Positions 19,870 through 22,735 of a DNA stretch of 22,883 nucleotides are shown here, one piece after another. The translations under genes and the position numbers were made by a program. Within the stretch, counting starts at the first letter, position 1, and each line of letters starts with the position of its first letter. The notes below the pieces were generated by a model, which saw only the letters and a program-made list of their open reading frames with translations, ran no database searches and was not told where the DNA came from. This stretch comes from a virus, in IMG/VR virus record IMGVR_UViG_3300028837_001956, positions 1 through 22,883 of that record. One strand, 5' to 3'.

Positions 19870-21477
19870 TTACGTAAGCAAACGCAGACCTTTGTAGAAA
19901 TAAACGCCTCTTTTGTACTTCTCGAACCGGTCTTTCATGAGATTTCCAAACTTCTTCTGTGACATGGAACTCTTCTTGCTCACGTTCTCCGTAAACCACT
20001 CCTTAAACGCATCATATAAACCCGATGCCGGAGCCTCAGCCTCCGGATCGATATGACAGCACTGATCCAGAAAGTCACCCAGGAGATCTTCATCCCGTTT
20101 GTATTCGGCAGTGGCATCAATAATCACCTTTGGCGGAGCCAGACCCATTTGCTGCCATCGGATGCACCCGCGCACCAACCACGCCAATATCCCCGGCGCT
20201 TCCTCCATAAGCTTATCAGGCAGATCTTTGTCCGCCCGCAGCTCATTGTCCTTTTGTGGTTCTCGATCGACAAAACTGAAAGGGAAGGGGATTAAGTGCA
20301 CCCGCTGCCAGAAGGCGAAATCATTGGCAGGCGCATGGGGCTTGTGATTAGTCAATAAGATGAGTGTGTGTGTGGGTAGAAAGTAGGTCTCATATCGGTC
20401 GTGGGGCGCCCGGCCCACCAGACTGTCACTGCCGGAGAGCCACTTAACCCGGGAAGGAGAAAACCGGCGGCCCTCATCAGCTTCGGATCCGAAGGCGATC
20501 CGGAGGCCTCGCAGGGCCATGATGTCCGGACTGGGACCGGAAGAGTTCTTGACCCGGCCCTGATCCAGAAGCATCTCCGACTGGATTGGTGCCGCCAGGG
20601 CTCCCAAAATCTTTGAGACTGTTTCGACGATGGTGGTCTTCCCGTTCCGGCCCTGGCCCCACATGATCGGGAGGATATTTTCCTTAACGAGTCCTGTGCT
20701 GGCATAGCCAAGAAGGCGATTGATGTACGCCTGCAACTCTTTGGCCTGGTCTTTGGCCTCATCAGTTTCCGCCTTGGCCCCGCCGAAAATCTGATACAGG
20801 GTCTCCTCCCAGATGGGCGCCGGCGCATCGATCCCCTGGTATTCGACCGGCGAGGCCTTGGAGATCATATCTGAGGGTAGACCCGGGCGGATCTCCCCGG
20901 TGCGCAGATCGATCACCCCGTTTTTACAACCTAAGAGCCAGGGATCCTGATCCAACTCATCACCCAAAATATCAAGACTGTGCTGAAGGTTGACCGCCGA
21001 GAACCTGAGACAATTCATTCTCCCGTTTTCTGTCCGCAGCCGGCTCACCCGTTTGTAAATATCCTCCTGGGTCTCCTTCAGGGATCCGGCCCGCCTGGTA
21101 TCCTTTTTCTGCATGGCCCAATCGATCTCCTTGACCAGATCCCGGGCATCCTGCAGGTACCTCTGCGCCACATTTTCCACCGAGGCCACGGCCCGCTGCC
21201 GGATATCCCGATCCCAATGATGCCCGGCCCAGGCCAGCCACTCCCCGCTGCTCTGATTCAACAAAAACTTGCCGTCATGAAGCGCAGAAAAAAGCATCCC
21301 ATCCCCTAACTGATTGGCATAAAGACAATCCCTGACAAAGCGGGAATCAACCTCCCCATTTCCGCCCGCCCGGGTTTCCGCTTGCTTTTTCTCGGCCCGA
21401 TGCTTAGATTCATCTTCAACACGTTTACGGACCATCTCCTCAACTGACTTTTCACCCATAAACAGATCCCAATCCAC
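19870..21477 (-). CDS. Phage primase-helicase, SF3/D5-type
   Basis: A 535-residue superfamily 3 helicase of the phage/plasmid D5 or P4-alpha type that unwinds DNA at phage replication forks. The N-terminal 170 residues match the D5 N-terminal region (CKNGVIDLRTGEIRPGLPSD at 184-203 is characteristic). Helicase motifs are Walker A IMWGQGRNGKTT (271-282), a Walker B-like ALRGLRIAFGSEADE (321-335) and motif C LILLTNHKP (372-380). The C-terminal 90 residues form a winged-helix-like region. The primase active domain is missing, matching the separate primase gene downstream. The start is uncertain: GTG 21477 and ATG 21459 both lack a good ribosome binding site, and the frame stays open further upstream into the attachment region. 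Confidence 0.92.
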   Translation of the reverse strand: MDWDLFMGEKSVEEMVRKRVEDESKHRAEKKQAETRAGGNGEVDSRFVRDCLYANQLGDGMLFSALHDGKFLLNQSSGEWLAWAGHHWDRDIRQRAVASVENVAQRYLQDARDLVKEIDWAMQKKDTRRAGSLKETQEDIYKRVSRLRTENGRMNCLRFSAVNLQHSLDILGDELDQDPWLLGCKNGVIDLRTGEIRPGLPSDMISKASPVEYQGIDAPAPIWEETLYQIFGGAKAETDEAKDQAKELQAYINRLLGYASTGLVKENILPIMWGQGRNGKTTIVETVSKILGALAAPIQSEMLLDQGRVKNSSGPSPDIMALRGLRIAFGSEADEGRRFSPSRVKWLSGSDSLVGRAPHDRYETYFLPTHTLILLTNHKPHAPANDFAFWQRVHLIPFPFSFVDREPQKDNELRADKDLPDKLMEEAPGILAWLVRGCIRWQQMGLAPPKVIIDATAEYKRDEDLLGDFLDQCCHIDPEAEAPASGLYDAFKEWFTENVSKKSSMSQKKFGNLMKDRFEKYKRGVYFYKGLRLLT

Positions 21478-21478
21478 C

Positions 21479-21498
21479 GGTCCGATTCGGTCCGATCC
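21479..21498. repeat. GGTCCGAT double repeat, helicase side
   Basis: GGTCCGATTCGGTCCGATCC contains two GGTCCGAT units. A near-identical pair lies at 21710-21727 on the other side of the tRNA fragment. Such paired short repeats on both sides of a core are what integrase arm sites look like. Confidence 0.7.
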
Positions 21499-21559
21499 AG
21501 TAGCACTTACAGTATATTTGGTGCTATTTAATGCCGGTTGGTAAAAGCGAGGTGTAATA

Positions 21560-21690
21560 ATTTCAATAAGTTATGCTACTTGAGGTAAGGTGTGTTCGCC
21601 TGCTAAGCGAGTGTAGGGCGAAAGTTCTACCGAGGGTTCGAATCCCTCTCTCTCCGCCATTTCAATAACTTACATCGCATCCTTATTGAA
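21560..21690. repeat. TTCAATAA repeats around the tRNA fragment
   Basis: Direct copies ATTTCAATAAGTTA (21560-21573) and ATTTCAATAACTTA (21659-21672) differ by one base and flank the tRNA fragment. An inverted TTCAATAAGG (21690-21681) overlaps the integrase stop. They may be recombinase binding sites. Confidence 0.65.
21595..21659 (+). other. 3' part of a tRNA-Ser(GCU) gene: phage attachment site
   Basis: Anticodon stem TTCGC/GCGAG with loop CTGCTAA (anticodon GCT at 21602-21604), a long class II variable arm (GTAG...CTAC), T arm GAGGG-TTCGAAT-CCCTC, acceptor 3' strand TCTCTCC, discriminator G and CCA (21657-21659). The matching 5' acceptor GGAGAGA is absent upstream and only a vague D-loop-like GAGGTAAGG is seen, so this is not a complete tRNA. 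Tyrosine integrases commonly use the 3' half of tRNA genes as the crossover core, and the integrase gene ends 24 bases away. Confidence 0.85.
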
Positions 21691-22735
21691 TACCCTCTTT
21701 AACCTTACTGGTCCGATCGGTCCGATGTTGATTTTCAACACTATCTAAAATGTCCACCGCTCGTTGAATTGCCGATGGAAGTATATGTGCATAGGTGTCG
21801 GTTGTCGTGGCCCGTTCGTGGCCCAAATATGCCTGAACCGCCGGCAGGGGTGCATTTAATGTTAAGAGACTTGAAGCGCCTAAATGCCGCAACGCATGTA
21901 ACGTAAATGGCTGCACCTGGGCTTGCTTACATAAGCGGAGCATCATATGATCCAGAAAATCGGTATTGAATTGAAAAACTCTGGGATCTGATTTATCGCG
22001 TTTCTGATATCGAGAGTGTAAGATCCTGCGAAGAGTTTTAGTCATCGCCTTGGGCTTCGGAGTCAAGGTGCCATTTTTACGTTTCTTGGTCCAAGCAATA
22101 AGCGACCATGAACCAAAATTAATATCCCGGTCCCACAATAGGCGCTGCGCCTCAATGCGCCTCAAACCTGCGTGAAATATGGTTTCCAAAAAATTAGCCT
22201 CATCAATAGAGGCAACCAGCTTAACCGCCGTATAATCGTGAATCGGTGGGGTGTATCTCACTGCGAGATCCTCGCCCATTTTATCAATGTCATTGGCGGG
22301 ATTAAAAAGCACAGCCTGTTTCCCAAAATGCCAGTTAAACATCGCGCGAATATCCCGGAGATCACGATTATATGTGGATTTTCCCGAATCGATCCGTGTA
22401 TCCAGATACGATTCGATGTCCTCTTTGGTCAATTTATCGACCGGCTTATCTCCGATCTGAAAAAGAAGACTTGTTAGCACGAAATACTTTTGCCGTAGCG
22501 TATTGGTCGCCATTCTTCGTTTTTCGCAATATTCGAGATATTTGAGGATTATCTCTTTCAAGCAAGCGGAGGGAATCCCCCCTGTTTGAGTTGGAGCATT
22601 TACCCGGGTCCGTTTTTCCGCCTCTGCGAGGATCGCCCCCCTTTGGGTCGAAAATCCCTCCGTTTTGTACCTTTGTCTTTGGTGTTCGAATTTGTACTTC
22701 CACTTTTTTGTTTTTGGATCCTGCCATACGCTCAT
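21683..22735 (-). CDS. int: Tyrosine-type integrase
   Basis: A 350-residue site-specific recombinase. It has a short N-terminal arm-binding region (MSVWQDPKTKKWKYKFEHQR), a SAM-like core-binding domain (about 55-150) and a catalytic domain with Arg192 (AGLRRIEA), Lys in TKKRKNG (216-222), His280-x2-Arg283 (LHALRHLG), His306 (YLGHERATT) and nucleophile Tyr315 (TDTYAH). It would integrate and excise the phage at the adjacent tRNA-Ser site. The start ATG 22735 follows a G-rich GGGGGTGGG stretch and lies inside the upstream HTH open frame. The C-terminus (HRTDRTSKVKEG) is encoded by GGTCCGAT repeats that recur across the attachment site, so the gene end and attachment region overlap. It could belong to this phage or to a neighbouring element in the same tRNA. 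Confidence 0.95.
   Translation of the reverse strand: MSVWQDPKTKKWKYKFEHQRQRYKTEGFSTQRGAILAEAEKRTRVNAPTQTGGIPSACLKEIILKYLEYCEKRRMATNTLRQKYFVLTSLLFQIGDKPVDKLTKEDIESYLDTRIDSGKSTYNRDLRDIRAMFNWHFGKQAVLFNPANDIDKMGEDLAVRYTPPIHDYTAVKLVASIDEANFLETIFHAGLRRIEAQRLLWDRDINFGSWSLIAWTKKRKNGTLTPKPKAMTKTLRRILHSRYQKRDKSDPRVFQFNTDFLDHMMLRLCKQAQVQPFTLHALRHLGASSLLTLNAPLPAVQAYLGHERATTTDTYAHILPSAIQRAVDILDSVENQHRTDRTSKVKEGIQ
21710..21727. repeat. GGTCCGAT double repeat, integrase side
   Basis: GGTCCGATCGGTCCGATG, two overlapping-style GGTCCGAT units inside the 3' end of the integrase gene, matching the pair at 21479-21498. Confidence 0.7.

Follow-up and report, generated by a model that had tools for sequence, protein, structure and literature searches.

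Does the short segment that separates the integrase gene of this virus from its replication genes represent an intact phage attachment site (attP), or is it the seam between two elements integrated in the same tRNA gene? The sequence analyzed here, referred to as the window, is the entire 22,883-base virus record IMGVR_UViG_3300028837_001956, which is classed as linear. The original prediction, made from the sequence alone, placed an attachment site at positions 21478–21727 and read it as the attP of a circular, non-integrated phage. This reading is supported by the finding that arms and core lie together between the integrase and D5 helicase genes in two phages represented by separate contigs, and the limits proposed for the site match its bounds almost exactly. 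Very probably, what is seen here is an intact attP, belonging to a temperate tailed phage that infects Desulfobacterota-type bacteria and is present in its circular, non-integrated form. The assignment to tailed phages follows from the genes farther to the left, where Pfam and PHROG comparisons identify a gpA-type terminase, a lambda-type portal and tail-connector proteins, as well as a DnaG-type zinc-finger protein and a ParB-like protein.

Organization of the attachment site

The core of the site is the 3′ part of a tRNA-Ser(GCU) gene, extending from the anticodon stem and loop through CCA with the sequence TCG-CCTGCTAA-GCGAG...GGGTTCGAATCCCTCTCTCTCCGCCA, also written TCGCCTGCTAAGCGAG...GGGTTCGAATCCCTCTCTCTCCGCCA (Table 1). 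An Rfam scan of the site returns sub-threshold tRNA-like matches only (antisense Plastid-psbl-rps4 and a tmRNA T-arm fragment), which are due to the presence of this fragment. Host sequence directly to the right of the integrase combined with an intact tRNA-Ser gene at the left end of the phage, named at the outset as the pattern that would speak against attP, was not found: an excisionase-like ORF lies to the right of the integrase, and ARAGORN detects no complete tRNA in the 22.9-kb window.

The fragment is flanked on both sides by repeat pairs, as had been noted. The repeat GGTCCGAT starts at positions 21479, 21489, 21710 and 21719, with a single further copy in the whole window, where shuffled sequences lead one to expect 1.13 copies; four occurrences within 248 bp have a probability of ∼1e-9 by a Poisson estimate. 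The shorter element TTCAATAA occurs three times in the window, at 21562 (+), 21661 (+) and 21683 (−), compared with a shuffle expectation of 0.63, and all three copies are at the site and no more than 130 bp apart. Both plus-strand copies are part of a direct repeat of 14 bases, ATTTCAATAA[G/C]TTA, and TTTCAATAA[G/C]TTA repeats stand on both sides of the tRNA fragment. These repeats resemble the IHF consensus with one mismatch each; because one-mismatch matches occur across the window about as often as chance predicts (15 observed, 14.8 expected), their reading as putative IHF sites is only suggestive.

The arms are arranged symmetrically. Relative to the first base of CCTGCTAAG, the arm repeats start at −120 and −110 on the left and at +111 and +120 on the right, and the midpoint of their inner edges falls at +4, on the central base of the GCT anticodon. 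The distance from the anticodon midpoint to either GGTCCGAT pair is thus 107 bp, and the anticodon loop lies at the center of the two arms. In the related phage described below, identity between phage and host ends on the left next to this loop, within which crossover likely takes place; for tRNA-targeting integrases of one class (class A; PMC4383910), crossover usually occurs in the anticodon loop. Since both arms are found together at the core, the site is uncut.

Table 1. Features of the attachment site and neighboring genes. Positions are those of the window unless another sequence is named.
Feature	Position	Strand	Remarks
attP core, tRNA-Ser(GCU) 3′ part	21596..21659	+	64/64 identity with intact genes of G134 and G449
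Anticodon loop CTGCTAA, likely 7-bp overlap (crossover) region	21600..21606	+	Limit of phage/host identity in G001; midpoint of repeats
P arm, two GGTCCGAT repeats	21479..21496	+	Just upstream of D5 gene start; kept in G001
P′ arm, two GGTCCGAT repeats	21710..21726	+	Within 3′ end (last codons) of int; counterpart in G001
IHF-like site TTTCAATAAGTTA, left of core	21561..21573	+	One mismatch; same position in G001
IHF-like site TTTCAATAACTTA, right of core	21660..21672	+	One mismatch to WATCAANNNNTTR; TTTCAACCACTTA in G001 at equal distance
Tyrosine integrase, 350 aa	21683..22735	−	Pfam Phage_integrase E=6e-16; PHROG integrase E=9e-42
Excisionase-like ORF upstream of int, open at contig end	22449..22883	−	Overlaps 5′ part of int by 287 nt
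Excisionase-like ORF upstream of int	L002 1-478		
Excisionase-like ORF upstream of int	L016 9688-10245		
Excisionase-like ORF upstream of int	L017 9688-10245		
D5-like helicase/primase, first replication-region gene across attP	19870..21477	−	Pfam D5_N E=2e-28; PHROG DNA primase E=1e-90

Host tRNA gene and predicted integration

The comparison with host tRNA genes covered 85 genomes of one bacterial order. The tRNA-Ser(GCU) gene that the prediction had called for was found in candidate hosts, and in G134 and G449 it is identical to the core over 64 bp. The core of the related phage G001 is a variant that matches the tRNA-Ser(GCU) genes of G426 and G427, the match in G427 running without mismatch for 70 bp and reaching the 3′ flank. 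The tRNA fragment thus points to candidate hosts, the two phages having one-base variants that match different host genomes. When the 5′ half of the host gene is joined in silico to the 3′ half carried by the phage, ARAGORN recognizes a complete tRNA-Ser(gct). The best explanation is that the hosts are sulfate-reducing bacteria of Desulfobacterota (deltaproteobacterial) type.

The G001 contig is also binned in a metagenome-assembled genome (MAG), G002, Deltaproteobacteria bacterium Meg19_1012_Bin_18; another bin of the Meg19_1012 series comes from Guaymas Basin hydrothermal sediment (PMC10553843). This MAG has an intact, empty tRNA-Ser(GCU) gene without a phage junction. Its status as host is uncertain because the gene agrees with the phage copy at 60 of 64 positions and differs in the variable arm.

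These features suggest a pathway for integration. The N-terminal domain of the integrase would bind the GGTCCGAT arm pairs and its catalytic domain the anticodon stem-loop, with IHF-like bending at the TTTCAATAA[G/C]TTA sites, and strands would be exchanged within the anticodon-loop part of the host tRNA-Ser(GCU) gene. By integration, the 5′ half of the host gene would become joined to the 3′ half from the phage, restoring the tRNA gene with the integrase adjoining it in convergent orientation, while the D5 helicase gene would come to lie at the far end of the prophage, next to the displaced 3′ fragment of the host gene. The two arms would thereby be carried to opposite ends of the prophage. 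Tyrosine integrase and tRNA attB are shared with tRNA-dependent lysogeny, in which the tRNA gene is not restored and a replacement is encoded by the phage (PMC10865867); this mode was rejected here, since the restored gene is complete and the window contains no phage tRNA.

The genome G163 presents the layout predicted for the integrated state, as judged from gene order: a 35% identical integrase lies 207 bp from an intact tRNA-Ser(GCT) gene, in convergent orientation and with a tandem GCCGTCCCAAAA pair between them. A second att copy or tRNA fragment near this integrase was not found within 80 kb upstream, nor was an attL/attR pair of the window phage found. In G426, a decayed short integrase remnant is located directly 3′ of the intact tRNA-Ser(GCU) gene (L053 1642-1815), flanked by TTCAATAACTTA as in the right arm of the window; it is probably what is left of an old element of the same kind as the window phage.

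Circularity and alternative explanations

The search of viral contigs identified one relative, G001 (IMGVR_UViG_3300033153_011881, identical to JAFDDR010000002.1), a contig of 49,124 bp with an integrase 86% identical to that of the window. It keeps the order integrase, tRNA fragment, D5 helicase as well as the core and the arms, the latter starting at −119, −109, +111 and +120, and its P′ arm consists of GGTCTGAT and GGTCCGAT with the spacing found in the window. One integrase, one complete set of flanks and just one match to the attP site are present on this contig, and among viral contigs the exact window core was found in G001 only.

The first and last 11 bases of G001 are identical, CATCTTTGTGC, an exact suffix-prefix match with an estimated chance probability of ∼3e-7. 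An overlap of 11 nt is shorter than the assembly word, and the closure was therefore tested independently by synteny. Two phage contigs, L037 and L038, were found through their D5 helicases, which are 63–64% identical, and have no integrase cassette at this place. In both, homologues of the genes at the left end of G001 are followed by a conserved stretch, GGGTCCTTCCTGG ... ATTTTTCAG.TTTGAAATGGA, and then directly by D5. In G001 this stretch is split between the two contig ends, its first half on the left and its second half on the right, and the orientations of the halves agree. Because the split stretch is collinear with L037 and L038, the ends of G001 must be neighbors in a ring of ∼49.1 kb with an uncut attP. 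The expectation that the contig closes as a circle is accordingly borne out for the relative, by both the terminal overlap and the synteny, but not for the window itself, which has no terminal overlap. We therefore infer from G001 that the genome to which the window belongs was circular when sampled. The right end of the window stops ∼100 bp short of the end of G001, and the window is read as a fragment of a sister genome to G001.

An attP-like sequence might also arise where two identical or near-identical prophages abut in tandem, or where the units of a replicative concatemer meet, since identical elements recombining in one tRNA gene produce a junction whose sequence equals attP. Tandem arrays in tRNA genes are known, Islander comprising 125 arrays of at least two elements (PMC4383910). 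Nevertheless, G001 has a single integrase and set of flanks and closes at ∼49.1 kb with no host sequence at the join of its ends, the MAG that carries it has an empty tRNA-Ser(GCU) gene, and host DNA on either side is found in no contig of the viral collection. Nor did the window or the viral collection yield the signs expected of an integrated array, namely a second integrase and host flanks carrying attL and attR. This origin is accordingly considered improbable.

The original prediction had itself offered a further alternative, in which two different elements meet in one tRNA gene and the right-hand one owns the integrase. This too would leave a tRNA fragment in between. Such a junction is disfavored because the two arms share repeats and the flanking sequences come from a single phage backbone: the arm repeats are identical on both sides and symmetrically spaced, the two flanks remain together in G001, and the sequence past the integrase cassette of G001 joins the backbone that precedes D5 in L037 and L038. 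The evidence from G001 largely refutes this proposal, which is now highly improbable. It is equally hard to credit that the fragment is merely a decayed phage-borne tRNA gene of no relevance to attachment, for phages do carry tRNA genes and their remnants, yet here only the 3′ part from anticodon stem to CCA is present, identical to host genes, next to an intact integrase and centered between conserved arm repeats.

The integrase-attP cassette, present in the window and in G001, is absent from L037 (4419-4531) and L038 (5847-5966), in which the leader runs straight into D5; L038 has a different integrase ∼5 kb away. From this distribution the cassette appears to be a swappable module.

Comparison with known systems and neighboring genes

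With attP as the preferred reading, the closest known systems are the attP sites of lambda-type tyrosine integrases at tRNA anticodon loops (Islander class A, PMC4383910; the Boilgate-type attP of mycobacteriophages, PMC10865867), and paired arm sites flanking a tRNA core are described for lambda-type integrases (PMC10865867). The block of identity is 64–70 bp here, compared with the 30–45 bp quoted for mycobacteriophages (PMC10865867). The present site also differs from these systems in its Desulfobacterota-type hosts, in arm pairs that are symmetric about the anticodon, and in the placement of the P′ arm inside the coding end of int and of the P arm at the start of the D5 gene. The attP of phage lambda comprises arm sites, IHF sites and a core between int and another phage region. 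The window site shares arm sites and a core between int and another region, and has candidate IHF sites, but is unlike it in having a tRNA-derived core, GGTCCGAT arm repeats and a position between int and the replication (D5) genes. Two prophages of delta proteobacterium NaphS2 (ADZZ01000233, ADZZ01000124) have integrases of 65–66% identity and share the overlapping upstream ORF, but have no tRNA-Ser(GCU) fragment beside int, the nearest downstream tRNAs being convergent tRNA-Arg genes at ∼3 kb. These tRNA-Arg genes (L016 13994-14070 and L017 14022-14098) are different isoacceptors and are perhaps attachment targets. Among named phages, all integrases are below 60% identity, the best among the matches listed being ∼26%.

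The arrangement of the site is thus ordinary and its mechanism textbook, though caught unusually cleanly. Only its location is somewhat less common: attP stands between the integrase unit and the replication (D5) genes, with all of these on the same strand. Integration may therefore cut the replication genes off from the transcription unit that supplies them in the circle and so act as a replication switch, a tentative idea that we regard as rather unlikely. In L037 and L038, which lack the cassette, D5 directly follows the conserved leader that in G001 stands ahead of the xis-like ORF. A scan of the int/attP region predicts one sigma-70-like promoter, where chance would give two; it lies inside int on the strand shared by int, attP and D5. 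The locus is significant because it pairs an attP that is complete and symmetric with a matching candidate attB, for what seems to be an undescribed group of temperate phages infecting sulfate-reducing bacteria of sediments; almost nothing on prophages of this host group came up when the open literature was searched.

The integrase is intact, its translation carrying the catalytic motifs GLRR, HALRH and LGH and Y315, and its gene is convergent with the tRNA fragment. At the left end of the contig (1-170), short repeats of the GGAAATTAGAAATT / AATTTCCAATTTCC type are a possible cause of the assembly stop.

The excisionase-like ORF has no significant Pfam match and is found at the equivalent place in G001 and the two NaphS2 contigs. 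Its overlap with int, of ∼80 codons (230–287 nt) in a different frame, is kept in all four sequences. In shuffles of synonymous int codons the overlapping frame stays open in 0–0.05% of cases, and between the two sequence pairs the divergence at first codon positions of int is lower inside the overlap than outside. It is possible, judging from these patterns, that the C-terminus of Xis and the N-terminus of Int are dual-coded in the overlap, which may prove of more interest than attP itself.
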